A stretch of 17,425 nt of DNA from Lachnospiraceae bacterium (GTDB lineage Bacteria > Bacillota > Clostridia > Lachnospirales > Lachnospiraceae): assembly GCA_022798035.1 (NCBI GenBank), contig JAAWLS010000009.1, positions 1 to 17,425 on the forward strand, read 5' to 3'. The position numbers and the translations under genes were made by a program. Below are positions 1 through 15,000 of the stretch, one piece after another. The stretch's first letter is position 1; each line of letters begins with the position of its first letter. Below the pieces are notes generated by a model. It had not been told where the DNA came from and made no database searches. It saw only the letters and a program-made list of their open reading frames with translations.

Positions 1-338
1 ACCAGCTCTTTCGTCTGTTTCGGCTTCATCAATGGGGCAATTTTGGCTATCGTCTCTATCTCTGTCTCCTGGTTTTTCAGATATTCCTTCTCGTTTCCTC
101 CAATCACCTGCTCTACCAGTTCTGCCTCCTTGGAGTCTCCCAGTATCTCATCTATGCTGCTGCCCAGAATCAAGGCCAATTGAGGCAGTTTGGAAATATC
201 CGGCATGGAATTCCCTCTCTCCCAGTTGCTGACTGCCTGATAGCTGACTCCCATCTCATCTGCAAGTTCCATCTGGGTCTTATTGGCCTCTTTCCTCAAC
301 GCTGCAATTTTCTTTCCTACTGTTCTTGTATCAAACAT
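1..338 (-). CDS. Xre-family helix-turn-helix transcriptional regulator, partial (3' end outside window)
   Basis: Reading leftward from an ATG at 336-338 there is an open frame of 112 codons running off the left edge. Residues about 7-63 form an Xre/Cro-type DNA-binding domain: the core reads TQMELADEMGVSYQAVSNWE (residues 21-40), followed by RGNSMPDISKLPQLALIL, the usual fourth and fifth helices. The part after residue 70 is charged and probably helical, with an APLMKPKQ stretch near residues 101-108 of the kind seen in C-terminal repeats of clostridial Xre regulators. An AAAGGA ribosome binding site lies about 9 bases upstream of the start. It follows the 55-codon small ORF by 30 bp and is probably co-transcribed with it. 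It is unlikely to belong to the NRPS operon, because a hairpin and about 550 bp separate them; its target is unknown. Confidence 0.88.
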   Translation of the reverse strand, partial: MFDTRTVGKKIAALRKEANKTQMELADEMGVSYQAVSNWERGNSMPDISKLPQLALILGSSIDEILGDSKEAELVEQVIGGNEKEYLKNQETEIETIAKIAPLMKPKQTKEL

Positions 339-368
339 CTCTTTTTTTCCTTTCTCATCTTTGCTGAT

Positions 369-536
369 TTACCGTAATATCTGTCTTATTTTCTCCACAT
401 CCATCATCTCCATAATTTCCATAGAACTGATGGTATCTTTTTGCAGTGCACCATACAATCCACCCTCTCTTTTATTGAAAAGATTCAAAATCCCACTTCC
501 ATTTTTCCATTTCCTTCCTCTGCCTATTTTCCTCAT
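369..536 (-). CDS. small hypothetical protein, 55 aa, unrecognised
   Basis: A 55-codon ORF with ATG at 534-536 and TAA at 369-371. It is preceded by a textbook ribosome binding site, AAAGGAG at 544-550, with a 7-base spacer, which is the main reason to believe it. The product has a strongly basic start (MRKIGRGRKWKNGSG), then LNLFNKREGGLYGAL, and ends in a likely amphipathic helix rich in Met, Glu and Ile (SSMEIMEMMDVEKIRQILR). There is no signal peptide, membrane segment, Cys pair or other motif I recognise. It sits 30 bp ahead of the Xre regulator on the same strand, so the two may form a small operon. No function is proposed. Confidence 0.5.
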   Translation of the reverse strand: MRKIGRGRKWKNGSGILNLFNKREGGLYGALQKDTISSMEIMEMMDVEKIRQILR

Positions 537-575
537 ACTGTTTCTCCTTTCGCTGCTGTGTCTGTGACTGATTTC

Positions 576-584
576 ATCCTAGCA
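576..584 (-). promoter_or_regulatory. possible extended -10 promoter for the small ORF and Xre gene
   Basis: On the minus strand the 9-mer TGCTAGGAT fits an extended -10 element (TGn followed by TAGGAT, 4 of 6 to TATAAT). It would start transcription about 30 bases before the small ORF's ATG. No good -35 hexamer is seen at 16-18 bp. The call rests on this motif and its position only. Confidence 0.25.
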
Positions 585-615
585 AATCTGTTCCAAATAC
601 AACAGCAATCAACAG

Positions 616-630
616 TTGAGTTTCACTCAA
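616..630. promoter_or_regulatory. perfect inverted repeat, possible operator
   Basis: TTGAGT-ttc-ACTCAA: two perfect 6-base arms with a 3-base centre. It lies about 35 bp upstream of the candidate -10 element at 576-581, between the terminator-like hairpin and the small ORF/Xre pair. Size and symmetry suit a dimeric regulator such as the Xre protein itself (autoregulation), which is inference. As RNA it would be only a weak hairpin with no U tract. Confidence 0.3.
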
Positions 631-649
631 GCAGTAGTTGAAATTCCCT

Positions 650-672
650 AAAAGCGCTGATTAGCGCGTTTT
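650..672 (-). terminator. terminator-like hairpin downstream of the operon
   Basis: The arms GCGCT and AGCGC with a GATT loop are flanked by AAAA on one side and TTTT on the other, with one bulged base, so the stem can extend through the A/T runs. It could act in either direction. It lies about 220 bp past the stop of the sensor kinase gene and is the only plausible rho-independent terminator seen between that gene and the next leftward unit. The U tract is short (four), so strength is uncertain. Confidence 0.35.
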
Positions 673-892
673 CCTAGAGATTTGTTCTGTACAATGGCAC
701 CCATCGCGTCCCTGCAGCTGGGGCAGACGGCAAAACAGCGCTCAAAGCAATTCTCTCTACCATGAAAGATATCGCATTGAACGCCATTTTGCAATCGCTT
801 TATATCATTTTCCGTAATTCTTTCAACTATTCAACCCTATCATTGATATGACAGCCCTGTTAAAAATGTAAAGCCAAACCGCTGCATCTTCC
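673..892. other. non-coding spacer, no confident gene
   Basis: The stretch between the hairpin and the sensor kinase stop has no ORF with a ribosome binding site on either strand. A short minus-strand ATG frame ending near 675 (MAFNAISFMVERIALS...) lacks a Shine-Dalgarno sequence. A plus-strand frame contains a YHERYRIERHFAIALYHF-like stretch at about 757-812 that vaguely recalls a transposase C-terminus, but it is too short to call. A small palindrome TATCA-t-TGATA lies at 838-848. It may be decayed sequence. Confidence 0.4.
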
Positions 893-2191
893 TCAGGCGG
901 AAGGCAGATTCAGAATAATTCTTGCCACAAACATCCCTCCTATCACGGAGAAATCCGTCTCCCCGTAATAACGTGACGCTGTTGAAACAACGCTTGGCAC
1001 CCCAAGGCCTCTGCTCTTTCCAGCTTCTGGCAGTCTTTTGGAAAAATTTATCCCTTGGTCGCTGGTATTGCTGAACCGAATAATAATTTTCTTCCCCTTC
1101 TGCGCAATATAAATGTCAATTTCCTGGTCTGTCATCCCAGAAGAAAGACACCCATGAATGGCATTCTCAAAGACATTCGCCAGAATCGCCACCCAATCCA
1201 CATCACGAACTGCCAGCCCTTTGGGTACTGCAGCATTTATTTTCACCTTAATATTATAACTTTCAGCTTTTCTCGCATAAGCAGAGAGAATACTGTTGAC
1301 AGCTTTGTTTGCGCAGATATTTTTTGACCTGCCATTTTCTATGTCCGCGCTGTACTCTTCCAGATAATCCAGCAGACTGTTGTACTCTCCTTTTTGGATA
1401 TATTCCCCGATTAAGAGAATATGATGCCGCATATCATGGCGTATTCTGGCCGCTTCCTCCTCAGACTCCTGCATCAGCTCCATCTGCCGGTGCAAAAGCT
1501 GCTCGTTTTCCTCCAGCAGTTCTTTTTCCTTCTGGTAGTAATGCTCCTGTCCCAGATGAATATACAAGTGCAGAATGGCATATTGGATGACGCCTGCCAT
1601 AAACAGCGTCGTAAAAGCCCGCACCATATTAAATATGGAAAATCCCTGCAGATTGGGCCAGTAGGCTATGATTGCCCCCGTCAGCACAGATATAAATAAA
1701 GTCACTCCGCTGAATAAATCCATCTCCTCTATCAGAAAATCTATCCCAGAAAGAAACATCTTCCTCAATTTTTTCCAGGTGAGAATCAGAATAATTGCAA
1801 GAACAGCTGCCCGCACTGCAATATCTACCCATACATTTCCCTGGAACCACCAGCGGGCCACGTCCACGCCGCAGAACGTACACACAGAAAACATGTAAAA
1901 AGCAACTGCCATTTTATAAAGAGACAGATAATACACCTCACTGCTCATCCATCCGCAGAAAATTCCAATGACAAAAAGAGAAGACAAACTTGCAAATTTC
2001 ACAAAGCTGGCCGTCGCAAAATAATACCAGGCGCTATAACTGACAATCACAGAAATTCCAAATATAACGTAGCACCAAATCGTTTTTCTCATAGAAAATT
2101 TGGGGCGGTCCAGCATCAGAAAAAAGGTCATCATCAACACTACACTGATGGTGTTCCGCAAAAATGCAATCCAAAAAGGACCTCCTAACAT
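893..2191 (-). CDS. AgrC-like GHKL sensor histidine kinase
   Basis: Membrane sensor kinase of 432 residues, the likely partner of the LytTR regulator encoded just upstream (49 bp gap). Residues 1-212 hold about six or seven hydrophobic segments (near 8-27, 38-57, 66-83, 88-108, 122-140, 160-178, 188-212). A coiled-coil-like Glu/Gln-rich stretch (215-248) leads to the phosphoacceptor motif RHDMRHH (His252), typical of AgrC/ComD-type kinases. The GHKL ATPase domain follows with an N-box around ANVFENAIHG (Asn339, Glu342, Asn343) and a G-box SRGLGVPSV (394-402). The start is supported by AAGGAG 9 bases before the ATG. AgrC-type kinases usually sense a peptide made by AgrB/AgrD, but neither is encoded here. 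The signal is unknown; the NRPS product is one candidate. It is the last gene of the transcription unit. Confidence 0.9.
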   Translation of the reverse strand: MLGGPFWIAFLRNTISVVLMMTFFLMLDRPKFSMRKTIWCYVIFGISVIVSYSAWYYFATASFVKFASLSSLFVIGIFCGWMSSEVYYLSLYKMAVAFYMFSVCTFCGVDVARWWFQGNVWVDIAVRAAVLAIILILTWKKLRKMFLSGIDFLIEEMDLFSGVTLFISVLTGAIIAYWPNLQGFSIFNMVRAFTTLFMAGVIQYAILHLYIHLGQEHYYQKEKELLEENEQLLHRQMELMQESEEEAARIRHDMRHHILLIGEYIQKGEYNSLLDYLEEYSADIENGRSKNICANKAVNSILSAYARKAESYNIKVKINAAVPKGLAVRDVDWVAILANVFENAIHGCLSSGMTDQEIDIYIAQKGKKIIIRFSNTSDQGINFSKRLPEAGKSRGLGVPSVVSTASRYYGETDFSVIGGMFVARIILNLPSA

Positions 2192-2240
2192 GTCTCATTT
2201 CTCCTTACACTGTTATCTGCCATAAGACGGTTTCTGTTCT

Positions 2241-2972
2241 TTATTCACAGTAATAGTCAAAATACTGTTCTTTTAAAGGCTGATAGGCCCCTCTGGGCAG
2301 ATATATCTTTTTTTCATTATCCATCTGCAGTTCTCTGGCATTCAGCGCATTTACGTGGTCTAAATTGATAATATAAGAAGCCCCGACTTTTACAAATTCC
2401 GGATGCCCAGAGAGCATTTCATAAATCTTCGCCATGGTCATGGAGAGCAGAAGCTGTGTATTGTCCGCCAGATAGAGACATTGTTTTCTTTTCTGGGCTT
2501 CAAAATAGATAATCTCATGCAGAGAAATTCGTCGAATCTTTCCGTCCGTTTTCAGAATCAAGTACTTCTTTTTCTTCATTTCCATATCTTCCAGCCAGCG
2601 GTCAAGCACCGGAAATAATTCTTTCTCTGAAACGGGCTTTACCAGATACTGGTCCGCCTCCACCCGAAAAGCTTCCAGGGCAAACTCTTCCGACATTGTA
2701 AGAAATACAATATTGCAGGTATTTCCCATTTTTCTCAGCTCTCTGGCTGCTTCTATTCCGGTTTTCTTCTGCATAAAAATGTCCATCAGCAGCAAATCCG
2801 GCATGCATTCTCCCTCTGTTATCTTCCAGAGCAGTTCGTCTGCATCCTCAAATCTCTCTATCTGAAAATCGCACCCGCTTTGTCTGCTTCGGTAAGCCTC
2901 CAGCATCCCTTCCGTCTTATCAAGTTCTTTCTCCTCGTCGTCACAAAGTGCGATTAAGTACATATGCCGCAT
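2241..2972 (-). CDS. LytTR-family response regulator
   Basis: 243 residues. Receiver domain at about 5-125: acidic pair Asp11/Asp12, phosphoacceptor Asp64 in LLMDIFM, Thr92 in VFLTMS and Lys112 in YLVKPVS, so all key residues are present. LytTR DNA-binding domain at about 137-240, with the usual opening (ILKTDGKIRRISLHEIIYFEA) and the FVKVGASYIINLDHV core. LytTR proteins bind paired 9-bp direct repeats; a candidate pair lies in front of the STAS gene (9509-9538). The gene follows the RsbW-like gene by 30 bp and precedes the sensor kinase by 49 bp, so the pair is co-transcribed. Two ATGs compete: the first (2972) has AGGAG only 2 bases away and the second (2963, starting MYLIALCDD) has it 11 bases away; I cannot decide from spacing. 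Confidence 0.93.
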   Translation of the reverse strand: MRHMYLIALCDDEEKELDKTEGMLEAYRSRQSGCDFQIERFEDADELLWKITEGECMPDLLLMDIFMQKKTGIEAARELRKMGNTCNIVFLTMSEEFALEAFRVEADQYLVKPVSEKELFPVLDRWLEDMEMKKKKYLILKTDGKIRRISLHEIIYFEAQKRKQCLYLADNTQLLLSMTMAKIYEMLSGHPEFVKVGASYIINLDHVNALNARELQMDNEKKIYLPRGAYQPLKEQYFDYYCE

Positions 2973-3002
2973 CTCTCCTGTCTTTTCCTTTATACTATAT
3001 TA

Positions 3003-3410
3003 TTAAATATTCTTTTTTATCTGCAGAATATTCTGTCCATTCTTATATTCATAGGAAATATCATCCATACATTTTTTGACCATGTAAATGCCAAGGCCGC
3101 CGATTTCCCGCTCTTCTGCCGACAGGGATACATCCGGGTCTGCTTTTGCCAAAGGGTCATAGGGGACGCCCTTATCTATAAAAGTAATGAGCACTGCCAA
3201 AGGAGCCTCCGTCACCTCCACCCGGACTGTAACCGGCCCTTCTCCTGGATGATATGCATAATGGGCAATATTGCCAAACAGTTCGTCAATGGCAACAGCA
3301 ATCTGTGCCTGGGCTTTCATCGGACATCCATACCGCTCTAACTGTTCCTCCACAAAGGATGTAACCTGTGCAATATGTTCTACCGCTGCATCAATTGTCA
3401 ATTCTTTCAT
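3003..3410 (-). CDS. RsbW/SpoIIAB-like anti-sigma factor / serine kinase (HATPase_c_2)
   Basis: Soluble ATP-binding protein of 135 residues (MKELTIDAA...). The frame is open further upstream, but I start it at the ATG at 3408-3410. That ATG has GGAAGG 6 bases before it and overlaps the phosphatase stop codon by 4 bp (ATGA), while the upstream start would overlap by about 58 bp. GHKL motifs are intact: N-box IDELFGNIAHYAY with Glu43 and Asn47 (the catalytic-type Glu and Mg-binding Asn of SpoIIAB/RsbW), G1 box IDKGVPYDP with Asp79, and lid motif GGLGIYMVKK (104-113). In this family the protein phosphorylates a STAS antagonist and alternately binds it or a sigma factor. The STAS protein and the opposing PP2C phosphatase are encoded in the same unit, so this is probably their kinase partner. 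No sigma factor gene is present in the window. Confidence 0.9.
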   Translation of the reverse strand: MKELTIDAAVEHIAQVTSFVEEQLERYGCPMKAQAQIAVAIDELFGNIAHYAYHPGEGPVTVRVEVTEAPLAVLITFIDKGVPYDPLAKADPDVSLSAEEREIGGLGIYMVKKCMDDISYEYKNGQNILQIKKNI

Positions 3411-4870
3411 AACATACCTTCCTTTCCCCGGCAGTCCCGCATTTTTTTCCTGTATTCCAGACACAGCATCGTAATATCATCAAACTGCTGTGCTCCGCCG
3501 ACAAAATCATCAATATCCTCCTTCACACAGGAAAGCAGTTCAAAAGGCGGCAAATCAGCATTCTTACACAGCACTCTGCCAAGCCGTTCCATTCCATAGA
3601 GTTCATTCTCCTGATTCATGGCTTCTGTCACGCCGTCTGTATACTGAAAGAATTTATCTCCCTCTTCAAACTGTATCACACCGCTTCGATACTGTATGTC
3701 CTCCATCCCGGCCAGCACAAATCCCGGACGCGTCTTATAAGGCTCAAATTCCCCATTCTTTCTGCAGAGAAACGGTATTTCATGCCCTGCATTTACAAAG
3801 CGGAACTCTCCCGTCACAAGGTCTAATACGCCCTCAAAAGCAGTGATAAACATTCCCTCGCTGTTAGATTCACACAGAAGGTGATTGACCTCTGTAAACA
3901 CTTCGCCTAAATCTCTGCCCGGCTGCGTATGGTCTTTTATCAGCGTCTTGCCGATTACCATAAACAGCGCTGCCGGCACTCCCTTCCCAGAGACATCCGC
4001 CGCCACAACAGCAAGATGACGTTCATCCACCATAAAGAAATCATAAAAGTCCCCGCCCACCTCCTTCGCCGGTTCCATAGAGGCAAAGACATCGAACTCC
4101 TCCCGCTCGGGAAAGGCAGGAAAAATACAGGGCAGCATGGATTTTTGAATATTTGTGGCAACATTCAGCTCCGCCGACGTTTTCATAGTCTTTGCGCTCT
4201 GATTGATAGAGTAAAATATCATCCAGAACTCAACGACAAAAATTACACATACCGTAACATACAGTACAAAAAACCACACGCTATCCGGGTAGATTCCCAC
4301 ACCGTTAGACACCAGGTTTATCATGTAAAAACCTACTACTGAGATAAACAAAGCAGGCAAAAATACCGTCATTTTTCCCTCCACTGCTTCCATAGTGCGG
4401 TGAATGGTCTTCCTTAAAAAACGCGCGTACAGGACAGAAAGTATGCCATAGACTACCAGCTTAATTCCAATAAAGAAAATCAGATTTTCCGTATCATAGG
4501 GACTTTCTGTAATCAGGCCAAGGGACGGGGCCAGAAGAGTGTCCGTGGTTCCGCAGAGCATAAATGTACTGACATTGGCAATGAGACATGCTGTCAGGGC
4601 AACCGCCAGTTTCGTGGACGGGCTGTCTTTATACAATAATTGTGACACCAGGCACACCAGAGCAGAAAGTCCCAGAATTCCCACCGCGTCATTATATAAA
4701 TTGATGGAATAGCTGACAAAGGCCGCCGTATAGCCTGAAATGGCGCCAATCCCCCAGAACAGTGCTCTGACACTCCCTTTGTATTTGGGAGTAAGTGTGA
4801 TTCCCGTCAGCAGTCCTGCAAAAACAGACGCCATGAAAACTGCAAAACTCCAAAGTGCAACAGATACCAT
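3407..4870 (-). CDS. membrane SpoIIE/RsbU-type PP2C serine phosphatase
   Basis: 487 residues if started at the ATG at 4868-4870. GGAGG at 4879-4883 sits 8 bases from that ATG; an in-frame TTG at 4885 overlaps this site and is therefore unlikely. Residues about 4-222 contain around seven hydrophobic membrane segments with no recognisable sensor fold, followed by a short linker. The phosphatase domain spans about 238-478: IQKSMLP (241-247), VGGDFYD (Asp274, Asp277), ADVSGKGVPAALFM (Asp292), NAGHEIPF, YTDGVTEA (Asp412) and QFDDITML (Asp464/465), which are the PP2C metal ligands and family motifs. RsbU/SpoIIE enzymes dephosphorylate phospho-STAS antagonists. Here the substrate is probably the STAS protein encoded two genes upstream, with membrane signals controlling activity. 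The gene lies 15 bp after the second NRPS and overlaps the kinase gene by 4 bp. Confidence 0.93.
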   Translation of the reverse strand: MVSVALWSFAVFMASVFAGLLTGITLTPKYKGSVRALFWGIGAISGYTAAFVSYSINLYNDAVGILGLSALVCLVSQLLYKDSPSTKLAVALTACLIANVSTFMLCGTTDTLLAPSLGLITESPYDTENLIFFIGIKLVVYGILSVLYARFLRKTIHRTMEAVEGKMTVFLPALFISVVGFYMINLVSNGVGIYPDSVWFFVLYVTVCVIFVVEFWMIFYSINQSAKTMKTSAELNVATNIQKSMLPCIFPAFPEREEFDVFASMEPAKEVGGDFYDFFMVDERHLAVVAADVSGKGVPAALFMVIGKTLIKDHTQPGRDLGEVFTEVNHLLCESNSEGMFITAFEGVLDLVTGEFRFVNAGHEIPFLCRKNGEFEPYKTRPGFVLAGMEDIQYRSGVIQFEEGDKFFQYTDGVTEAMNQENELYGMERLGRVLCKNADLPPFELLSCVKEDIDDFVGGAQQFDDITMLCLEYRKKMRDCRGKEGML

Positions 4871-4877
4871 CTCAAAT

Positions 4878-4884
4878 TCCTCCA
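4878..4884 (-). promoter_or_regulatory. ribosome binding site fixing the phosphatase start
   Basis: TGGAGGA on the minus strand, with an 8-base gap between GGAGG and the ATG at 4868-4870. It overlaps the TTG that would otherwise extend the ORF by five codons, so the ATG is preferred. Confidence 0.75.
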
Positions 4885-4885
4885 A

Positions 4886-7800
4886 CTAAAATAAACCCAT
4901 TCCCTGCAAAGCAGACAGATATTTTCTAATATACTCATCGGTAATAACGCTCCATCCGCCCGACAATTTTTCCAGCCGCCGCTCTGTGATTTCCTGAATA
5001 ACTGGAATTTCGTGATAATCTTTGGCATACTCATTTGTAACCAGGCCCTGCAGACGCTCTCTCCCCTCTTCTGTCTGCCTCAGTTTTCTCAGAAGTTCCT
5101 CAAACTCCCGCTCTGGCAGAACCTCTATCGGGCTGCCCATTGCTCTCACTTCCTCAAACAAATCGGCAAATTTCAGCTCCACAGGAGGATAAACATGAAA
5201 TACTGCTCCCCCTTCTCCCGTGGCTGTCAAAGTCACAATGTTGTGAGCGGTCTCATCCACCGGTGAAAAGTTGACGCTGCCCTCATAGACAGACTGGGGT
5301 ACCGCTCCCATCTTGATATAGGAAGAAAATTGACGGGTAAACGCGTTAGAGTGCAGGTTCATCTGAAACTCTCCGTCAGAAATCCGTCCCTGAAGGTTCC
5401 CGACCCGCAGTATTTTAATCTTTAATCCTTCATCTACCGCTGCCCGCAGCATTTCATACTCCGCCATATATTTTGAATAAATGTATTTATTGTGTATTTC
5501 CTGTCCAACATAGAAATCTTTTTCACAGAAAGGCTCTTTTGTCCTGGATTCCATCGTCATGCCGGAAACGCTGATAGTGGAAATCTGGCAGAGCATGGCA
5601 TGTTCCTTTTGAGCATAATCAATCAGATTTCTGACTCCTGCCCGGTTGATTCTGTCCAGGTCATCTCCATAGGAAAAATGAGCCACATCAGCCGCAGAAT
5701 TTATAATCGTATCAATGGAGACGGGACATGGCCTGGCAAAAATGCTGTCTTCTGTGATGTCACCCTCCACAACAAGCCACTTTTCTCCGTAATTACAGGA
5801 AAAATCCTCTTCTGCATAGTAGAACAGAGATGATTTCACCCGCTTTTCTGCACTGAGTTTCCTCTTTGGGCGTGCAAGACAGACAATCTTGTCACAGCAC
5901 TCAGGATGCCTGAGCAAATCAATCAAAATATGGATTCCCAGATAACCGGTCACTCCCGTCACAAGCACATTTCCAAGATGGCTGCAGGTGATTTCATTTT
6001 CAACGTGCAGCTTCAGGTACTCATCAACCCCCTGGTAGTTCAAATTTTTAATATCAAATCCGCAGTCGGTTTCTTGTTTTTTGTAAATTTTTTCCAACAG
6101 CAGTGCAGGCGTCGGAAACCGATACAAGTCCCCAAATTCCAGCTGGTTTTCCCGCAGATTCAGCGTTTCCTCTATACAGAGCACTGCTGCAGCCGCACTG
6201 AGAGAATCCCCGCCAAGTTCAAAGAAATTGTCGTCAAGTCCAATCTGAGAAACTTTCAGCGTTTCCTCAAACACACTGCAGATTTGTCTCTCTTTCTCTG
6301 TCTCTGGTTTCCGGTAAACCCGGGTGTACGTCAGCGGTTCCGCCTCCAGCGCCTTCCAGTCTGTCTTTCCGTTGGGAGTCTGCGGCATCTCAGCCAGCTC
6401 TTTTATCACATCCGGCACCATGTAAGAAGTCAGCCTGGATTTCATGTGCTTTTTTAACTGTTCCTCATTCACGGCGCCTTTTCCAACAACGGTGTAAAAA
6501 CCAACTAAATGCTCCGTTTTATCAATTTTACGCACCATACAGCTGCAGGACGCAATGCCCGGAAACTCTCCCATTACATTTTCAATCTCTGAGAGTTCTA
6601 TCCGCAGTCCCCGCAGTTTTACCTGCCTGTCATTTCTGCCGCAGTAGATTAAATTTTTTTCTTTGGAAAAATATCCCAAATCTCCGGTCCGGTAAATCCG
6701 GATTCCGTTCCAGATAATATATTTTGATTTCGTCTCCTCAGGCCTGTCTTTGTAACCAATCCCCACTCCACTGCCATACACGCAGATTTCTCCCACTGCT
6801 CCAAAAGGCACAGGTCTGCGGTTTTGGTTCAGCAGCACAACTCCCATATTTCCAATGGGCCTGCCGATGCTCTCCGTATCTCCGGCCTCCGTGATTGTGG
6901 CTCCAATCGTAGTCTCTGTGGGTCCATACCCATTGTACATGCGAATCTTATAAGTGTCTTTCAGACGTCTCACAAGACTGCCCGGCAGAACTTCCCCCGC
7001 TGCCAGAATAGCTTTCACATGACAGAGAGCCTTGGAAAACTCCTCATTCCCAAGATACGCCAAGATGCGCGAAGGTGTGCAGTGCAGCATATCCGCATGA
7101 TGGCGCAGAATATGAGCAGCCAGTTCCCCGGCGTCCAGCATGGCTTTCTCACTTCCCAGCTCTACAAACAGTCCATTCATCAGTGGCACAAAGATTTCAA
7201 AAAGCGAAATATCAAAACAGATGGAGCCGATGGCTGCAATGCCGTGACAGTTCTTTGTCACATCACGGTTAAAAGGATTGTTATCCGGGTGGACAATATT
7301 GGCAATTCCTCTATGAGAGAGCATAACTCCTTTTGGCCTTCCCGTTGTGCCGGAAGTGTAAATCATGTAAGCGAGGTCCTCCTGCCCTATCTGGGGCAGC
7401 ATATCAAGCTCCGGCTCCTGAGCCGCCAAAGCGTCAATCTCTATATAATCGTAATTCTCTGCAATTTCCACATCTTTGGAGGAGAGAATACAGCGGGCCC
7501 GGCTGTTCTCCACAATATAAGAAATCCGCTCCATGGGATAGGCAGGGTCTATGGGGATAAAAGCTGCTCCTGCCTTTGAGATGCCAAGAATTGCAGGAAT
7601 CAAGCGAAAATCCCGCTTCAACAGAAAAGCGGCGCCGTCTCCTTTCTGCACCCCGCATCTTAAAAGCCCGCAGGCAATCCTGTCGCTCATCTCATCCAGT
7701 TCCTCAAAGCTCATCGTGACATCCCCTGCATAGACTGCAGGCCTGTCTCTGTATTTCTTTACGGCCCGTCGAAACAGAGAGGATATCGTATCATCCGGTT

Positions 7801-9079
7801 CGATAAAAAGAGATTTTCCGGTAACAGAAATAATTTTCTGATACTCTCCTTCCCCTATTGTCTGCATATTGGAAAGTTTTCTGTTCTGCACTCCCTCGGA
7901 AAGAATCAAAAAAAGTGCGTCACAGAGATGCCTCACCTGCCCGCTGGTATAAATGCTCTTCTGGTAATCAAACTGTACATCCAGTCCACCGCTCTCATTG
8001 TAAAAAAGATTAAAAGTAATGTGATTCTGCATGCCTCCGGCGACATTAAAGCGGACTTGAAAAGGCAAATCTGTCCGAAAAGAGAAACGATAAAAGTTAA
8101 ACACATACTCAGAGACAGTATCTGCAATCACATTCTCCTCCCGCAGTCTGGAGAGAATCTCATCAAAACCAGCGTCTTTGTGGGCTGAGGCCTCCCTCGC
8201 CGCCTTTTTCACTTTCCGGCACAATGTCCCAAAAGTATCTTCCGGCGACACCGAAACCCGTACCGGAACCAGAAGGGTATAGCATCCCAGACATTCCTTC
8301 TGCTCTTTGGTTCGATTCAGCCGGGGCATCAAAAAGACCGCATCCGGCCGGTCTGTGGCCTGTGCCAGATAAAAAGCATAGGCAGCGGCAGCTATATACG
8401 GAATGGAAACGTCTTCCTGCCTCCCCAAAAACTTCATGGACTGTAAGATGATATCCGGCAGGGGAACCCGGTAACTGCCGTATTCCATTCCTGTCGCTTT
8501 TCCGGAAAATATGGAAGGCTCAAACTCTGCATCAGAAAAATATCCGCTCCAGAAACTGCTGTCCCCTTTTATCCCATTCCCACAGCGGGCAGCGAACAAA
8601 GAAGGCTTGATTTTCTTTCCTGCAAGTACATCCAGCACCCTCTGCACAAATAAGCTCATACCATAACCGTCTATGATAATATGGTGGAACCGCACATACA
8701 AAAAGACTCCACCTTCTAAAAGGGGAATCACTTCTGCCTGATACAGGCTGCCCTCCAGATTCATAGGCTGTCTGTCGGCACTGTCCATATATTCTTCCGC
8801 TGCATCCGCAGACTGTTCTTCTGTTATACGGCATGCATCCTTTTTCTCTCTGCCATAGTCCATACGCCATCCCTTTTGGGTGGGGCGCAAAAAGGCTGCA
8901 AAAATATCTGCGCTGTCCAGCACGATATCCGCCGCCTTCTTCACCTGCTGAGACGTATGCCTGGGCAGAAAAAGCTTTAGAGAAATTGTATTTTTTCCGC
9001 TGCCTGGGCAGCTCAGCTCTGTCATTGCAATTTCTCTCTGAGATAAATTCAGTCCATCCATTTGTCTCTCTGTTATCAT
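4886..9079 (-). CDS. NRPS, single module C-A-T with terminal thioester reductase
   Basis: 1397 residues from the ATG at 9077-9079, which has GGAG 8 bases upstream; the ATG at 9085 has it only 2 bases away. Domains: condensation about 8-423 with intact HHIIIDG (132-138); adenylation about 428-913 with YTSGTTGRPKG (574-584), GYGPTE (717-722) and the A10 lysine in NGKTD; carrier about 923-998 with LGGDS (phosphopantetheine on Ser959); reductase about 1035-1397 with nucleotide-binding GVTGYLG (1042-1048) and catalytic YIYSK (1199-1203). Aligned by eye to GrsA, the specificity code reads D-I-F-H-L-A-G-I-G-K, which matches no substrate I know. The reductase would release the thioester as an aldehyde or alcohol. 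The condensation domain starts the protein, so its donor must come from another carrier or an acyl-CoA. The first C motif (LNLSQREIAMTEL) is divergent. The gene sits 18 bp after the STAS gene. Confidence 0.95.
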   Translation of the reverse strand: MITERQMDGLNLSQREIAMTELSCPGSGKNTISLKLFLPRHTSQQVKKAADIVLDSADIFAAFLRPTQKGWRMDYGREKKDACRITEEQSADAAEEYMDSADRQPMNLEGSLYQAEVIPLLEGGVFLYVRFHHIIIDGYGMSLFVQRVLDVLAGKKIKPSLFAARCGNGIKGDSSFWSGYFSDAEFEPSIFSGKATGMEYGSYRVPLPDIILQSMKFLGRQEDVSIPYIAAAAYAFYLAQATDRPDAVFLMPRLNRTKEQKECLGCYTLLVPVRVSVSPEDTFGTLCRKVKKAAREASAHKDAGFDEILSRLREENVIADTVSEYVFNFYRFSFRTDLPFQVRFNVAGGMQNHITFNLFYNESGGLDVQFDYQKSIYTSGQVRHLCDALFLILSEGVQNRKLSNMQTIGEGEYQKIISVTGKSLFIEPDDTISSLFRRAVKKYRDRPAVYAGDVTMSFEELDEMSDRIACGLLRCGVQKGDGAAFLLKRDFRLIPAILGISKAGAAFIPIDPAYPMERISYIVENSRARCILSSKDVEIAENYDYIEIDALAAQEPELDMLPQIGQEDLAYMIYTSGTTGRPKGVMLSHRGIANIVHPDNNPFNRDVTKNCHGIAAIGSICFDISLFEIFVPLMNGLFVELGSEKAMLDAGELAAHILRHHADMLHCTPSRILAYLGNEEFSKALCHVKAILAAGEVLPGSLVRRLKDTYKIRMYNGYGPTETTIGATITEAGDTESIGRPIGNMGVVLLNQNRRPVPFGAVGEICVYGSGVGIGYKDRPEETKSKYIIWNGIRIYRTGDLGYFSKEKNLIYCGRNDRQVKLRGLRIELSEIENVMGEFPGIASCSCMVRKIDKTEHLVGFYTVVGKGAVNEEQLKKHMKSRLTSYMVPDVIKELAEMPQTPNGKTDWKALEAEPLTYTRVYRKPETEKERQICSVFEETLKVSQIGLDDNFFELGGDSLSAAAAVLCIEETLNLRENQLEFGDLYRFPTPALLLEKIYKKQETDCGFDIKNLNYQGVDEYLKLHVENEITCSHLGNVLVTGVTGYLGIHILIDLLRHPECCDKIVCLARPKRKLSAEKRVKSSLFYYAEEDFSCNYGEKWLVVEGDITEDSIFARPCPVSIDTIINSAADVAHFSYGDDLDRINRAGVRNLIDYAQKEHAMLCQISTISVSGMTMESRTKEPFCEKDFYVGQEIHNKYIYSKYMAEYEMLRAAVDEGLKIKILRVGNLQGRISDGEFQMNLHSNAFTRQFSSYIKMGAVPQSVYEGSVNFSPVDETAHNIVTLTATGEGGAVFHVYPPVELKFADLFEEVRAMGSPIEVLPEREFEELLRKLRQTEEGRERLQGLVTNEYAKDYHEIPVIQEITERRLEKLSGGWSVITDEYIRKYLSALQGMGLF

Positions 9080-9097
9080 AACCATGTCTCCGCTATC

Positions 9098-9394
9098 TTA
9101 CTCAATTGTCAAAATGTCTGCAAACCCGGTCACTTCAAATATTTCCATAATGGTGTCATTAACGTTTGTCACCTGCATGGTTCCCTGTTTGTTCATGGTT
9201 TTCTGAGCTCCCAAAAGAACTCGAAGTCCTGCAGATGACAGATAGTCCAGCCCTTTCATGTCGATGGTCAGTTCTGTGATTCCCTCAATGGAATTTTTTA
9301 AAGCTTCTTCCAGCTCCGGCGCTGTATTGGTATCCAGTCTTCCTTCCAGTGCCAGACACAAATTGCTTCCGTTTCCTGTTTTTGCTATCTTCAT
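9098..9394 (-). CDS. STAS-domain anti-sigma factor antagonist (SpoIIAA/RsbV-like)
   Basis: 98 residues, essentially one STAS domain. The LEGRLDTNTAPELEEAL opening and the IDMKGLDYLSSAGLRVLL stretch (44-61) are diagnostic. By alignment to SpoIIAA, Ser54 is the expected phosphoacceptor. AGGGG and AAGGA runs lie just before the ATG. Such proteins, when unphosphorylated, bind an RsbW-type kinase and free its other partner. This window encodes two RsbW-like domains (3003-3410 and the C-terminus of the exporter at 10225-11997) and one PP2C phosphatase (3407-4870), so the STAS protein is the likely hub. It is the first gene after an internal promoter and lies 18 bp before an NRPS gene, an unusual neighbour for a sigma-regulation protein. 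Confidence 0.95.
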   Translation of the reverse strand: MKIAKTGNGSNLCLALEGRLDTNTAPELEEALKNSIEGITELTIDMKGLDYLSSAGLRVLLGAQKTMNKQGTMQVTNVNDTIMEIFEVTGFADILTIE

Positions 9395-9433
9395 TTCCTT
9401 TTCCCCTTCCTCAATGGCCTGTCTCTGCAGTCA

Positions 9434-9445
9434 ACTGCCGGCAGT
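9434..9445. repeat. perfect 12-bp palindrome in the STAS leader
   Basis: ACTGCCGGCAGT is fully self-complementary and lies about 17-28 bases downstream of the start point predicted from the -10 element at 9469-9474, in the untranslated leader of the STAS gene. It could be an operator for a dimeric repressor or contribute to RNA structure. No matching copy was noticed elsewhere in the window by eye. Confidence 0.35.
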
Positions 9446-9468
9446 CCATTTTTTCTATCGTTATTTGC

Positions 9469-9477
9469 ATTATATCA
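9469..9477 (-). promoter_or_regulatory. extended -10 promoter upstream of the STAS gene
   Basis: On the minus strand TGATATAAT is a perfect TATAAT with the TGn extension, about 75 bp before the STAS ATG, in the only sizeable gap of the gene block. The -35 position (about 9492-9497, GCAGAA) does not resemble TTGACA, so the promoter either relies on the extended -10 or needs an activator. It would drive the STAS gene through to the sensor kinase independently of the NRPS1-exporter-transferase part. Confidence 0.55.
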
Positions 9478-9508
9478 AATCACAATTCCCTTTCTGCTTT
9501 CACGTCAT

Positions 9509-9538
9509 AATTAGCATTTTTTTCAGCATATTTTGCAT
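9509..9538 (-). promoter_or_regulatory. candidate LytTR-type direct repeat (9 bp, 12-bp spacer, 9 bp)
   Basis: On the minus strand ATGCAAAAT and ATGCTAATT (7 of 9 identical) are separated by exactly 12 bp, the architecture used by LytTR regulators such as AgrA and ComE. The proximal repeat ends about 12 bp upstream of the expected -35 position, where an activator would sit. The bases themselves do not closely match the AgrA or ComE consensus and the region is A/T-rich, so chance is possible. Confidence 0.3.
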
Positions 9539-9562
9539 CAGCCAAACATTTTTCCGGCCGGG

Positions 9563-10228
9563 TCAGAAATAAAAAGGCCGGCGGAAACACACTGCCGCAT
9601 AATACTCTTCAAGCCGAATTTCCTTGAACTGATAATCTGCCACATCCAAATCATGAAAAACATCTGCCCGTCCATCTGGCATAATGCGGATTTCAAAGGA
9701 ATTTAGGGGAAGGGAAAACCCTGTCCCCGCTGCCTTTGTAAAGCTCTCTTTCAATGTCCACAGACGGTAAAAGGCTTCTCTGCGCTTTTTTCCCTCTGGC
9801 TGCCCGGCAATATACTGATATTCACCGGAAGAAAAGAACCTCTTTGCCAGCTCCATATCTGCATCCTGCATTTTCTCAATATCACAGCCTGCCTCCACCT
9901 CCGCAAACACAGCCAGAACCATCTCTCCGGAATGAGATAAATTAAAATGAATGCTTGGGTGTTCCGGCAGATAAGGCTTTCCATTTTCTCCATAGGCAAC
10001 GACAGCCTCACGCTCCTGCAGTCCATAATTTTCCAGTCCCTTTTTCATCAGAATCCCCGCCGCCAGAGACAGCCTTTTGTCCTCCAGGCGCATATAAGAA
10101 TCTACTTTTTTACGGCGCGCAATTGACAGTGATTTGTAATGTTCGTCAAAATGCGATTCGTCCTTCAATTCTTTCGTATGCATTAAGTACAGCTTTGCGC
10201 CGTATTTTTCTATCACCAAATGCTTCAT
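9563..10228 (-). CDS. Sfp-type 4'-phosphopantetheinyl transferase
   Basis: 221 residues, the usual length for an Sfp-type enzyme. It transfers phosphopantetheine from coenzyme A to the carrier-domain serines of the two NRPSs. Motifs in order: GKPYL (83-87), HFNLSHS (94-100), GCDIE with Mg ligands Asp116 and Glu118, and WTLKESFTKA with Trp157, Lys160 and Glu161. The ATG overlaps the exporter's TGA by 4 bp (ATGA), indicating translational coupling, and AGGAG lies 9 bases upstream. It ends the first part of the gene block; the next gene starts after 168 bp. A CCGGCC/GGCCGG inverted repeat spans its stop codon. Confidence 0.96.
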   Translation of the reverse strand: MKHLVIEKYGAKLYLMHTKELKDESHFDEHYKSLSIARRKKVDSYMRLEDKRLSLAAGILMKKGLENYGLQEREAVVAYGENGKPYLPEHPSIHFNLSHSGEMVLAVFAEVEAGCDIEKMQDADMELAKRFFSSGEYQYIAGQPEGKKRREAFYRLWTLKESFTKAAGTGFSLPLNSFEIRIMPDGRADVFHDLDVADYQFKEIRLEEYYAAVCFRRPFYF

Positions 10229-11997
10229 TCTTCCCTGCTCCTCTTCATGTTCAATTCCATAATCGTATTATTCATATTCAGTACCCGCATATACTGAAAT
10301 CCTGACATCATTTTCTGCAGTATCGGAATACCTCCCACTACCGGCCCATCCTGAATGCGGCTTTGTTCCAGAGGATTAAAGGGGATGCCGTCATCCCGAA
10401 TCCGCAGAATATAGCTGCCGTCCTGAACTGTGAAACTGATGTCGATATAATTCTCTCTGTCGCTGCGATAGCCGTACCGAATAATATTGACGGCGATTTC
10501 TTCTAAAGCCATGCCCAGGAACCCGGCGTCTCTCTCACTGATACCGTTATCCGCACAAAAATCCATCAGATTATCCCGAAATTCTGACACATTCTCCAGA
10601 CAATTTCCCATGGAAAAATCCAGACAGGTTTCATTCTCCACTGAGGGCAGCATGTATCTGCCTCCATCCGGAAGTTTTCCGGCTCTCTGGGCCGTTATCC
10701 GATACAGCACCCCCAAAAGAATCGTCAGCATTTCACTTACCGCCGCGGCAATGCACACTCCTTCCAGTCCCAGCCAGAAGATCCCTGCCAGCGTCAGAGG
10801 CACAATCACTGCAAATCCCTGAAGAACTGTGATAACGGTGGAAAGCCCCGGCTGCAAAATCGTCTGATAATAGGACATCAGGAACTTGTTGTACACATAG
10901 AAGGGGAAACTGCATGCAAAAATGCGCAGCGCCGTCTTGCACAACGCCAGCATTTCTCCCCCTTCAATGCCAAAAAGGGCTGCAATCGCCTGTGGAAAGG
11001 CCAGAAACAAAAATAACAGTACTGCAATCGCCAGATAGCTGTACAGAAGAACTTTTCTGCAGAGCATACGGATTCCGTAATAATCTCTTTCCCCGTAGAG
11101 GATTCCAGCAATATTGGGAATCAGGCCGATAATACCTCCCACGCACAGTTCTGCAATCAGCACCGCATTGGCACAGACAGAATACACTGCCATAGAATCT
11201 GAGCCCAGAAACCGCACAATGGCAGAGTTGATAATCACAGATTTCAGAGCCGACATCATGGTAAATGCTGCGCTTGGTATTCCAGCCCTGGCCGCCAGTT
11301 TCACATGGGAAATCGTTCCTCTTTTTAACTTCTGCAGCTTCAGCATTCTGTGGGGAGAGCGCAGATAGAAGATAACCGTCACCATGCCTGTCAAATACCC
11401 AATTACTGTGGACAATGCGCTGCCGGCCATTCCCATGTGAAAGACTTTGAGAAGCAGAATGTCCAGCCCCAGATTTACCACATTGGCAATGATAAAAAGC
11501 GCGCTGCCAAGCTGGGGATGATTATCTGCATTCATAAAATAACAAACAATAATTGCAGCCGTTAAAATAGGAATTCCTCCAAAATTCACGGCCAGATAAG
11601 GCTCCACCAAAGATGCCATCTCATCACTTCCAGCAAGAAGCACTGAAAGAGGGGAGGCGAGAACAGGAGTCAACAGCGCAAAAAGAAGCGCTGCCAAAAC
11701 TCCGGCTGCCAGGGAAGCGCCAAACACTTCCCCCGCCTTTTCTGTCTCTCTTTTTCCCAGCAGCACCGCCGTCTCGGCAGCTCCTCCCATAGCCAGCATT
11801 ACAGCCGGCATCTGCAAGAGCAGCAGCACCGGCATGGAAAGTTCAATCGCCGCCATGGCGTCAGGGCCTAAGATATTTCCCACAATCATGCCGTCTACCA
11901 CATTGCCCAGCTGCATTGCCACTGTCATCAAAATTCCCGGCAGAATGTACTGGTGGATTTTCCTGTTGATTAAAAATCCATTTCTCTCCATATTCAT
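10225..11997 (-). CDS. MATE-family exporter fused to a C-terminal RsbW/SpoIIAB-like ATP-binding domain
   Basis: 590 residues against about 450 for an ordinary MATE transporter. Residues about 10-435 carry some twelve membrane segments and MATE features (MQLGNVVDGMIVGNILGPDAMAA at 28-50; a second half starting near 230), so it should export small molecules using an ion gradient. Residues about 455-590 form a HATPase_c_2 domain: N-box ALEEIAVNIIRYGYR with Glu500 and Asn504, G1 box IRDDGIPFNP with Asp535/Gly537, and a lid region GGIPILQKM (555-563) in which the usual GLG reads GIP. The family equivalent phosphorylates or binds STAS proteins, and one is encoded nearby. It follows NRPS1 by 6 bp and overlaps the transferase by 4 bp. 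A second ATG at 11991 has GGGGG 6 bases upstream and may be the true start. The fusion frame is continuous, with no sign of a frameshift. Confidence 0.93.
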   Translation of the reverse strand: MNMERNGFLINRKIHQYILPGILMTVAMQLGNVVDGMIVGNILGPDAMAAIELSMPVLLLLQMPAVMLAMGGAAETAVLLGKRETEKAGEVFGASLAAGVLAALLFALLTPVLASPLSVLLAGSDEMASLVEPYLAVNFGGIPILTAAIIVCYFMNADNHPQLGSALFIIANVVNLGLDILLLKVFHMGMAGSALSTVIGYLTGMVTVIFYLRSPHRMLKLQKLKRGTISHVKLAARAGIPSAAFTMMSALKSVIINSAIVRFLGSDSMAVYSVCANAVLIAELCVGGIIGLIPNIAGILYGERDYYGIRMLCRKVLLYSYLAIAVLLFLFLAFPQAIAALFGIEGGEMLALCKTALRIFACSFPFYVYNKFLMSYYQTILQPGLSTVITVLQGFAVIVPLTLAGIFWLGLEGVCIAAAVSEMLTILLGVLYRITAQRAGKLPDGGRYMLPSVENETCLDFSMGNCLENVSEFRDNLMDFCADNGISERDAGFLGMALEEIAVNIIRYGYRSDRENYIDISFTVQDGSYILRIRDDGIPFNPLEQSRIQDGPVVGGIPILQKMMSGFQYMRVLNMNNTIMELNMKRSREE

Positions 11998-12003
11998 CCC
12001 CCG

Positions 12004-15000
12004 TCAATCAATTTTCCCATCGAAGAATCCCAGACTTTCCAGTGCTCCCAGAGCATTGCGCAGATAATTTCCGTCAGGCATAGGCCATTTAAAGCCCAGC
12101 CGGTAAAGAACTTTTGTGGTAAAGCTGTTCTCCGCATCAATGTAAACGCTCTTGGTATCTTTGTCGCTGGACAGATATGCAATTAAACCAGATATCAGTT
12201 CATTTTTATTCTCATCTTCAAGCGCCCGCTCAAGAGCCTCCTGAAACTCCTCATCACTCACTGTCTCGACTGGAATGCCGACAGCATTCATCTGCAGAAT
12301 CACATCTGCCATCTGAATCACATAACTGCTGTAGGCGTGGAACACACTGAAATCACTCTCTGCTCCGGCAAGCCTCACAATGGCGTCCGCGGTAGAGTCA
12401 ATAGGGGAAAACTCCGCAGGCATATCCAAGAGGGAAACCGGGAATTTGCCAAGAGCTACATATCCGCGCAGTGTCCGCATAAATCCATTGGTGACAGAGT
12501 TAATCTGGAACTCTCCGTCACTGACACGGCTCATCAGATTTCCCACTCTGATTACTCTTCCTTTCATTCCCTCAGCCACAGCTTCCAGAACGGCCCGTTC
12601 TGCCCGGAATTTTGTGTCGATATATTTGTTGGTAATGTTCTGTCCAAAATCCAGTTCATTCTCATGAATCTTCTTCTCCTCCGGGAACTTGCCGCCTACG
12701 TTCTCTCCGGCAACGCTCACTGTGGAGATTTGAATCAGGCTTCTGTCTGTCTCCATACAGAGCTGAATCAGATTCAGCACTCCCTGGTAATTAATTCTCT
12801 CTAACGTATCGTCTGCGGAAAAATGTTTTACACAAGCTGCGCAGTTGATGACCTGGTCAAACTCATACTCTCTCAGACGGCTTACACTGTCTTTCTCTGT
12901 TATATCTCCTTCCAGCACCACGATTCTGTTTCCGAAAAGTTCCTCATAAGGATTGCTGAAATAGTACACCAGCATACTCTTAAGCCTCTTTTCCACAGAG
13001 GAGGCATTTCCCTTCCTCAACAGACAGTAAATGGTGCTTTGGCTGTTCTCTATCAGAGTTTTCAGAATGTGGGAACCCAGGAATCCGGTAGCTCCCGTCA
13101 AGAGGACATTCCCTGGCAGACCTGGCCGAATCTCATCCACATGTTCCAGGGTATTCTGTTCCAGCACCTGCTGCAGCACATCTTGATTTCCTGCTTCCTT
13201 TTCCTTATGAACTGTCTGTTCTTCCGTTTCTCCTTGAGCCCGCTCCTGCAGCAGATACTCCTCTAAGGCGAGAGGCGTCTTGTATTCAAATAAATCGGCA
13301 TAAGAAATTTCAATTCCCGCACTCATGCACTTCATGGCTACTTTCGAGGCGGAGAGAGAAGTTCCTCCATTTTCAAAGAAATCATCTTCGATTCCAACCT
13401 GCTCCAAGCCGAGCGCCATTCCAAATATTTCACATAGCTTACGCTGCAGCTTGGTGCGGGGCTCTACGTAATTTTTCTTCTCCATGGTGTACTCTGGTTC
13501 CGGAAGGGCCCGCTTATCTACCTTGCCGTTATTGGTAAGGGGCAGTTCTTCTAACTGCATCAATACGCTTGGCACCATGTAAGGAGTCAGATATTTCTGC
13601 ATATAGCAGGTCAGATTCTGTTTCTCCACCTGTTCCTCTGCCACAAAATAGCCGCACAGGAACTGAATGGAATCTTTCTCTTTCACAAGGACAACGCTGG
13701 ATTTTACTGTGGGGTACTGGTTCATGACATTTTCAATTTCATCCAGTTCTACACGAAGTCCCCTCAGTTTCACCTGGTTATCCATCCTGCCCATAAACTC
13801 TATTTTTCCGTGATGATTCCACTTGGCCAAATCGCCGCTGCGATAAGATTTCTTTCCTTCAAAGCGAATGAATTTGTCTTTTGTCATCTCCGGTTTACCC
13901 ACGTAACCTCTTCCCACGCCGTCTCCTATGATAAGCAGCTCACCCGGCACTCCGGCAGGAAGGAGATTTCTGTATTTGTCTATCATCACCATCTTAGTAT
14001 TGGCCATAGGCTTTCCAATGGTAATCTTTTCTCCTGTCACCTGCTCAAAGGCACAGCCAATGGTAGTCTCCGTGGGCCCGTACCCGTTAAACACCACCGC
14101 CTGGCTTCCCAGAGCCATAATCTTGTCATAAAGAGCGTCCGGAAATGCTTCTGCTCCCACATTGAACACCTTTATCTGAGACAAGGAATCTTTCATCTCC
14201 GGCATATCAATGATATTTGTCAGGAAGGATGGGGTGCAGGTCATCATATCCACACCATGCTCTGTGATTAATTGAGAGAGAGCCATGGGATTGTGAATTT
14301 CCTCTTCATTCGCCATGCAGACGGTGATTCCATGATACAGTGGAATACATTCTTCCAAAATGGACACATCAAAAGTAATAGCCGCAAAAGCCAGAGACAC
14401 TGTGGCATTCTGCACATAGGAGCGGGCCTCCACATTGTACGGATTATCATTTACATAATTTACCAGATTGCGGTGCTCTATCATCACGCCTTTGGGCTTT
14501 CCGGTGGAGCCGGAAGTGTAGATACAGTAGCAAAGCTGTTCCGGTCTCACGTCCACATTTGGATTCTCTGTACTGCCTTCTGACAGAAGTTCCTCCACCA
14601 CAAGCACTTTTGCATTTAACTGCTTCACAAACTGGCTGCGCTCTTTTGCAATCTCTCTTGTGAGAATGACAAATCCTGCACCGGAATCCTCCAGAATATA
14701 GGAAATACGCTCATCGGGATATTCGGGGTCGATAGGAAGAAAGGCACCTCCCGCTTTCATAATACCCTGTCTTGCCGCGTACACATCCACCGTCCGGGGC
14801 AGCATCACACCCACCATCTGCTCTGAAACAAGTCCCAGCTCCAGCAGATGATTTGCAATTTTATTGGCGTTCTTATTGAGCTCACGGAAAGTCCGTCTCT
14901 CTCCATTGGCAATCACCGCTGTTTTCTTTGGGTATAACAGCACCTGGTGCTCAAAGAGACGGTTAGCCGTGGTCTGCTCTACCGGACAATCTGTCTCGTT

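Follow-up and report, generated by a model that had tools for sequence, protein, structure and literature searches.

The outputs best known for partner switching are sigma factors and, in a few cases, diguanylate cyclases. What does a partner-switching set control when its genes lie among nonribosomal peptide synthetase (NRPS) genes with no sigma gene in view? The question is raised by a 17,425-base stretch of a Lachnospiraceae bacterium (the window, which is contig C308, positions 1-17425, of a 2.26 Mb metagenome-assembled genome (MAG) that is 63.6% complete). It encodes a STAS antagonist, a PP2C phosphatase, a stand-alone RsbW-like kinase, and a MATE exporter fused to a second RsbW-like HATPase domain (MATE-HATPase). 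The answer that we propose, and to which we give an even chance, is a sigma-independent partner-switching module with the exporter of its own small-peptide gene cluster as target; the frequent recurrence of the combination in relatives from gut and rumen suggests that the switch controls export, not gene expression.

A switch set inside an NRPS gene block

The NRPS, exporter, and switch genes are the following (domain letters: A, adenylation; T, thiolation; C, condensation; R, reductase; AF2, AlphaFold 2).

12004..17424, minus strand: NRPS1 (Pfam AMP-binding, Condensation, PP-binding, and NAD_binding_4), with A-T-C-A-T-R visible and the 5' end cut at the contig end
10225..11997, minus strand: MATE exporter with a C-terminal HATPase_c_2 domain (RsbW/SpoIIAB-like, residues ~441-590; Pfam, AF2, phmmer)
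9563..10228, minus strand: 4'-phosphopantetheinyl transferase (PPTase; PF01648, 3.9e-19), in a 4-base overlap with the exporter gene
9098..9394, minus strand: STAS antagonist with predicted phosphosite Ser54 (PF01740, 1.7e-17; TIGR00377 above cut-off)
4886..9085, minus strand: NRPS2 (C-A-T-R by Pfam)
3407..4885, minus strand: PP2C phosphatase of SpoIIE type (PF07228, 5.2e-45; hydropathy)
3003..3410, minus strand: stand-alone RsbW-like Ser kinase (HATPase; PF13581 (HATPase_c_2), 5.8e-24)

All genes from 17424 to 893 lie on the minus strand as a single block, in the transcriptional order NRPS1, MATE-HATPase, PPTase, STAS, NRPS2, PP2C, HATPase, LytTR regulator, and GHKL kinase; intergenic gaps are at most 50 bases, with the sole exception of 168 bases ahead of STAS. 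The sequence-only reading had described a partner-switching circuit at 2241..11997, coordinates that start with the LytTR regulator, and its inventory is borne out: a STAS protein with Ser54, the Asp residues of the PP2C, an RsbW-like kinase, and an exporter-fused RsbW-like domain were all found by Pfam and alignments, interleaved on one strand with NRPS, transferase, and exporter genes. The block is wider than first described, taking in a GHKL kinase gene downstream (893-2191) and an NRPS gene that runs off the contig at 17424. Because NRPS1 meets the contig end of an incomplete MAG, the region 5' of it is invisible in this genome.

The three switch proteins are well preserved. The Ser54 position is Ser in 45/45 aligned STAS domains, and we take it, from family knowledge, to align with the phosphorylated Ser of SpoIIAA and RsbV; the nearest solved relatives include RsbV (6m36_B) and SpoIIAA, and the protein has the form of an Rsb/SpoIIA antagonist with a phosphorylatable Ser. 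The PP2C carries the Asp motifs GGDFYD, ADVSGKG, YTDG, and FDDIT (90-100% conserved in 41 aligned domains), scores as an RsbU/SpoIIE-type phosphatase (PF07228, 154 bits; cut-off 25), and shows by hydropathy about six hydrophobic segments in its N-terminal ~230 residues. In the stand-alone HATPase the E-x-x-x-N, DxG, and GGxG positions are invariant over 34 aligned domains. It has the N, G1, and G2 boxes of a GHKL Ser kinase, with PF13581 above cut-off, and lies below the NCBIfam equivalog cut-offs for RsbW (42.3 of 145 bits) and SpoIIAB (25.9 of 135 bits). Its gene probably starts at the ATG at 3410 and not at the GTG at 3464; this ATG overlaps the PP2C stop codon as ATGA, and many homologs of the kinase begin MKEL.

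The exporter is a MATE protein (MatE, PF01554, 1.1e-21, 77.6 bits; cut-off 24.9), and its whole AF2 model (predicted local distance difference test (pLDDT) 76) has a MATE fold, with 6fhz as the best Protein Data Bank (PDB) match (E 1.5e-13, TMt 0.83). Its C-terminal extension scores 51.6 bits with HATPase_c_2 (PF13581, 1.2e-13; cut-off 27.4) and 5e-6 against SpoIIAB by phmmer. The best PDB matches to the model of this domain (pLDDT 82.9) are the SpoIIAB structures 1l0o, 1til, and 1th8, followed by RsbW (6m37); 1til and 1th8 are complexes of SpoIIAB with SpoIIAA. The extension is, by profile and predicted fold, a GHKL domain of RsbW/SpoIIAB type. It has the GHKL ATP-site residues (E, N, DxG, and the G2 Gly, in a GGI motif), and the E, N, DDG, and GG of the site are retained in 30-31 of the 31 close MATE-HATPase copies.

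Linkage of the switch to the exporter in relatives

Scanning genome contigs with the MATE-HATPase gave 70 loci. The exporter is present in the 52 named ones (L019-L070), with both domains in 51 and a contig cut before the HATPase domain in L044; L071-L088 match the HATPase part only. Among the 52 named loci, NRPS C or R domains accompany a whole exporter in 42 (43 when L044 is counted), STAS is found in 29, PP2C in 24, stand-alone HATPase in 23, and the full STAS, PP2C, and HATPase set in 22. Forty control regions of 20 kb each, from the same genome set and mostly from contigs carrying a MATE-HATPase or R-domain match, contain one PP2C, two adenylation-type proteins, two plain MATEs, and one sigma gene; STAS, HATPase, MATE-HATPase, and C or R domains are absent from all 40. 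Linkage was thus 42/52 versus 0/40 for NRPS C/R domains (p=6e-17) and 22/52 versus 0/40 for the full switch set (p=5e-7), as scored in loci and controls by the same STAS, PP2C, HATPase, and MATE-HATPase profiles, which were built from the tested loci themselves. Forty-two of the 43 STAS genes that share a locus with a MATE-HATPase are on the same strand, and 20 lie within 300 bases (two loci overlap).

The association reaches beyond the nearest relatives. NRPS domains occur in 28 of the 33 close loci (full switch set 15, partial 5, none 13) and in all 15 intermediate loci (35-42% identity, mostly rumen MAGs; full 5, partial 4, none 6). The four distant loci have no NRPS, and two of them carry the full set; of the two, L069 starts within the tail of a first MATE-HATPase, and its NRPS may simply have been cut off.

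At the level of whole genomes, the exporter HATPase domain is matched (1e-6) in 38 of 250 family genomes and STAS (1e-10) in 80. STAS is present in 36 of the 38 genomes with a MATE-HATPase match, the window's own genome counted, versus 44 of the 212 without one (Fisher p=8e-19); G014 and G199 have the exporter match and no STAS match. Across the class, the exporter domain is matched in 22/291 genomes. With the control regions and this co-occurrence across genera, the possibility raised at the outset that the genes are chance neighbors is rejected. STAS may also be encoded at a distance from the exporter: all 11 tested genomes with a STAS-less MATE-HATPase locus (8 close and 3 intermediate: L021, L023, L026, L027, L036, L041, L042, L046, L059, L061, and L066) encode a STAS elsewhere that is 43-84% identical to the window's, three genomes with a local STAS serving as positive controls. 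The STAS regions of the eight close genomes contain NRPS2 with PP2C and/or HATPase (L239, L243, L244, and L246), GH3 and a second MATE-HATPase with PP2C and HATPase (L240 and L245), or neither PP2C nor HATPase nearby (L241 and L242).

The switch genes behave as a movable unit with the order STAS-X-PP2C-HATPase. X is NRPS2 in the window, L019, and L164; a second MATE-HATPase with GH3 in L032, L037, L039, L040, L043, L045, and L048; and a second MATE-HATPase with GNAT in L033, L035, and L069. In the rumen relatives L051, L052, L054, and L055 the PP2C and the HATPase are one polypeptide. The sensor parts of the PP2C vary among dCache-HAMP (L033), HAMP (L028 and L051), and 5TMR-LYT (L059), as would be expected of receptors with different ligands. 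GH3-family enzymes (acyl acid amido synthetase type), found in 10 of the 52 named loci, lie beside STAS, MATE-HATPase, PP2C, and HATPase at, for example, L040:14497-16191(+) and L067:8265-9980(+). A natural STAS-HATPase fusion of 526 amino acids is encoded from ~16300(+) in L144 (G234:C24), near a PP2C and a second STAS. Viral contigs yielded zero confirmed relatives; 41 plasmid records match at <60% identity, and none covers 80% of the query in one place.

The exporter and other candidate targets

In the SpoIIAA/RsbV family, the unphosphorylated STAS protein binds its RsbW-like partner and the phosphorylated form does not. Given that the cluster supplies a single free kinase, a single receptor phosphatase, and an exporter bearing an RsbW-like domain, the most economical circuit would run from a signal through PP2C and unphosphorylated STAS to docking and a change in export. 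By analogy with the family, the membrane PP2C would sense the signal and take the phosphate off Ser54, and the stand-alone HATPase would restore it; unphosphorylated STAS would then dock on the RsbW-like domain of the exporter and gate export of the NRPS product. Docking might open or close the pump, and the proposal leaves the direction free. Its candidate non-sigma target, the MATE-HATPase, sits in the same gene block as STAS, kinase, and PP2C, with linkage and co-occurrence in relatives.

Second exporter copies bear on this proposal. Where a second MATE-HATPase directly follows STAS, the Asn of the N box and one or both Asp residues of DDG are gone in 10/10 cases examined, while the close first copies retain both the Asn and DDG in 31/31. 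The loss fits a docking role that has outlived catalysis; for an exporter-borne kinase domain that lies next to STAS and is probably inactive, docking is the simplest interpretation. HATPase-like tails, degenerate in sequence, also occur at the C-termini of ABC ATPases, which by our reading appear to be of the amino-acid uptake type; in four loci these lie directly upstream of STAS.

L022:16430-17581(+): tailed ABC ATPase, adjoining STAS
L031:6323-7669(+): tailed ABC ATPase, adjoining STAS
L239:5864-6985(+): tailed ABC ATPase, adjoining STAS
L245:8718-9878(+): tailed ABC ATPase, adjoining STAS
L266:17304-18395(+): tailed ABC ATPase, ~7 kb from STAS

Sigma independence of the switch we regard as probable. 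The window, cut on its 5' side, contains zero sigma genes and so lacks the cognate sigma gene that marks the Rsb and SpoIIA operons. In relatives, queried with SigA, a cut SigF, FliA/WhiG, and two extracytoplasmic function (ECF) sigma factors from the window's genome, sigma genes occur in 5/92 MATE-HATPase loci versus 1/40 controls (p=0.67). The MAG has 13 Sigma70_r2 matches, all on other contigs; the best 8 of the 13 are SigA, SigG, SigF (cut), SigE, SigK, FliA/WhiG, and two ECF types, with no SigB-like orphan among them, and sigF is accompanied by a spoIIAA-spoIIAB pair of its own on C126. The 152 related regions contain eight sigma genes in total, of which one (L154) lies 2.2 kb from STAS and three lie within 1 kb of a switch gene, against a mean of 1.8 for random placement in the same loci (P=0.25). 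A linked sigma factor was therefore set aside for want of enrichment near either MATE-HATPase loci or switch genes. The sequence-only reading would have been contradicted by a sigma gene just outside the window in a standard rsb arrangement; as far as relatives can tell it is not, and in this genome the side 5' of NRPS1 lies outside the contig.

A number of observations weigh against a sigma-free switch dedicated to the exporter. The genome is incomplete to the extent stated above, and the sigma classification covers 8 of the 13 matches. In L239 an ECF sigma gene (L239:870-1487(+)) immediately precedes a co-oriented cassette-type HATPase gene, and this is the only one of the 152 regions in which a sigma gene touches the switch; further ECF sigma genes lie 415 bases from a PP2C fragment in L253 and 944 bases from the HATPase in L038. 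Since placement is no closer than random, we treat these three as background, though L239 is the most promising of the regions in which to seek a sigma output. Among the 48 close or intermediate loci, 19 (13/33 and 6/15) contain neither STAS, PP2C, nor HATPase; in 11 of those 19 the contig continues for over 8 kb on the downstream side of the MATE gene, and there the absence is a local fact and not a contig end. The same three genes are missing from 23 of 40 family MATE-HATPase regions (drawn from 65 non-own places, mostly the better-scoring; L132 and L150 overlap). Pfam HATPase_c_2 scores the ABC-fused tails below its cut-off (14.8 bits in one of three, unlisted in two), and because of this the homology of the tails rests on the profile built in the present analysis.

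The STAS protein also keeps other company. Of the 212 genomes that lack a MATE-HATPase match, 44 encode the same subfamily; in 20 of these 44 (L259-L278), HATPase is found in 17 STAS regions and PP2C in 12, which indicates that the switch also serves other partners. Members lie near NHLM bacteriocin export ABC proteins (TIGR03796/TIGR03797) at L255:10637-15030(+), L264:10221-12404(-), and L268:10640-15371(-), and in L268 STAS and HATPase directly adjoin the export proteins. In L262 a GGDEF protein (9412-11460(+)) follows HATPase-STAS, possibly a diguanylate-cyclase output as in SiaABCD-like systems. With these neighbors, and its presence in 44/212 genomes, the STAS family has other targets. 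The suggestion that the switch is dedicated to a natural-product cluster is thus upheld as regards linkage and co-occurrence with NRPS and MATE-HATPase, and fails as regards exclusiveness, the STAS set being found also with NHLM exporters and GGDEF.

Among reductase NRPSs, moreover, the set is confined to a single clade. Places matching the NRPS1 R domain number 38, spread over 32/250 genomes (two are the window's own; G054 (two), G230, G103, G159, and G021 were left out, and the 4.3 kb contig G233:C253 was set aside). The 14 informative non-own places with at least 40% R identity divide into 10 that adjoin a MATE-HATPase and 4 that adjoin a MATE of 563-566 amino acids. At the 14 fetched places below 40%, in contrast, MATE-HATPase was found in 0/14 and any of STAS, PP2C, and HATPase in 3/14. 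The association accordingly belongs to one NRPS clade, and the idea that partner switching is a general trait of reductase NRPSs falls. Only in L163 is the tail of a 563-566 amino acid MATE HATPase-like (hhalign E 1.5e-7; full-profile hmmsearch E 1.3e-5, 18.6 bits, versus 4.6 bits for the best of 200 shuffles); degenerate HATPase tails on the NRPS-adjacent MATEs of this class in L160-L162 are unsupported, the L161 and L162 tails being identical. Outside the count of 14, a 90-residue R fragment in L119 (G157:C16; 65% identity) adjoins a MATE-HATPase and is apparently what is left of an NRPS whose exporter has survived.

Three other readings of the switch were considered. In classical partner switching with the sigma factor encoded elsewhere, the stand-alone HATPase would act as the anti-sigma factor, with the MATE-fused HATPase serving either as an additional kinase or as a STAS sink. 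The types of component equal the Rsb/SpoIIA set, the MAG is incomplete with all its sigma matches on other contigs, and ECF sigma genes adjoin or approach switch genes in L239, L038, and L253; yet the best 8 of 13 sigma proteins include no SigB-like orphan, sigF is already provided with its own partners, sigma genes show no enrichment around MATE-HATPase loci or switch genes, and the fusion of a HATPase to an exporter is left unexplained. We consider this reading unlikely. Were the MATE-HATPase instead an input, a transport-coupled STAS kinase reporting export flux, the target could be the cluster enzymes, the LytTR system, or the stand-alone HATPase. Such a role would suit the intact ATP sites of the close MATE-HATPases and the LytTR and GHKL genes of the window, which recur in some relatives. 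A dedicated stand-alone kinase is already there, however, the ATP site is lost in every second MATE-HATPase after STAS that was examined, and the ABC tails look degenerate, so that we hold an input role to be slightly less likely still. Control of the flanked NRPS2 and GH3 enzymes, and not of the exporter, has in its favor that the STAS-X-PP2C-HATPase order encloses NRPS2 (window, L019, and L164) or GH3 with a second MATE-HATPase. But X stands for varying, unrelated enzymes, profile scans show no HATPase-like domain on NRPS or GH3 proteins, and this reading appears very improbable.

The composition of the set and its retention in relatives have good support. The exporter had been put forward among the possible outputs from the sequence, and as an output it is now partly supported, by STAS adjoining MATE-HATPase genes, by ATP-site loss in second copies, and by the tails of the ABC ATPases. 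The loss in 10/10 second copies and the sigma gene of L239 pull in opposite directions and leave our estimate for the exporter as target unchanged. We advance more tentatively, at somewhat less than an even chance, a control layer throughout the Clostridia in which RsbW-like domains on MATE and ABC transporters would dock a diffusible STAS phospho-switch, gating secretion of natural products post-translationally, with receptor phosphatases as gatekeepers and one STAS family shared by NRPS, GH3, and NHLM clusters.

Neighboring genes and relation to known systems

The 3' end of the block and its flank contain three further genes.

2241..2972, minus strand: LytTR response regulator (PF00072 and PF04397)
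893..2191, minus strand: GHKL (HATPase_c_5) sensor kinase with several hydrophobic segments (PF14501, 5.6e-9; hydropathy)
338-3: HTH_3 gene, ~550 bases beyond the GHKL kinase

The LytTR/GHKL pair (893-2972(-)) closes the block, and related genes are found near the cluster in, for example, L049, L030, L040, and L038; it is possibly a second, transcriptional layer of control. In the gap between PPTase and STAS, an extended -10-like sequence, TGATATAAT, at 9469-9477(-) may mark the start of a separate STAS-NRPS2-PP2C-HATPase transcript; in a promoter scan, sites were no more frequent than in shuffled sequence.

Both NRPSs terminate in a reductase domain (NAD_binding_4), and longer relatives of NRPS1 read A-C-A-C-A-R in a domain scan. 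They share this ending and the accompanying PPTase with the AusA/AusB (aureusimine) and rup (ruminopeptin) systems, and the AusA and AusB models match, although the scores are far below both model cut-offs; with the AusA model NF047350, 988 bits (NRPS1) and 584 bits fall short of the equivalog cut-off of 2500, a harsh test because NRPS1 lacks its 5' end and NRPS2 has only one module.

The cluster resembles the RsbV/RsbW/RsbU and SpoIIAA/SpoIIAB/SpoIIE systems of Bacillus in having a STAS protein with a conserved Ser, a GHKL Ser kinase, and a PP2C. It differs from them in the lack of a linked sigma gene in the window, in the second RsbW-like domain on a MATE exporter, and in its setting among NRPS genes.

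The ruminopeptins, products of Ruminococcus bromii, are dipeptide aldehydes (PMC12327764). In SiaABCD, HptB-HsbR-HsbA/HsbD, and BgrSTUWV/BgrR, sigma-independent partner switching controls diguanylate cyclases through the phosphorylation state of STAS or STAS-like proteins (PMC8457831), whereas the candidate output in the present cluster is an exporter with its own RsbW-like domain. Several single-STAS systems are described as having outputs that are still unknown (PMC8256260). A precedent for STAS control of a transporter is MlaFEDB, where the STAS protein MlaB binds the ABC ATPase MlaF and a phosphomimetic change of the STAS Thr weakens binding (PMC7367683). MlaFEDB is, in contrast to the MATE-HATPase, an ABC lipid transporter, and the available text of that source neither shows phosphorylation of MlaB nor mentions a HATPase domain on the transporter. 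SspH of Streptomyces, a HATPase-only pleiotropic regulator of antibiotic biosynthesis that affects biosynthetic gene expression, likewise ties a HATPase-domain protein to natural-product formation, and a transporter fusion is unmentioned in the available text (PMC9137472). Titles and abstracts in the literature searched, outside which most subscription journals lay, describe no MATE-HATPase or partner-switching set inside an NRPS cluster.

If the exporter is the target of the switch, secretion of a gut microbial peptide could be turned on or off in response to an external cue with no need for fresh transcription, and the present group of gut and rumen NRPS clusters would gain a testable release trigger in the ligand of the PP2C receptor.

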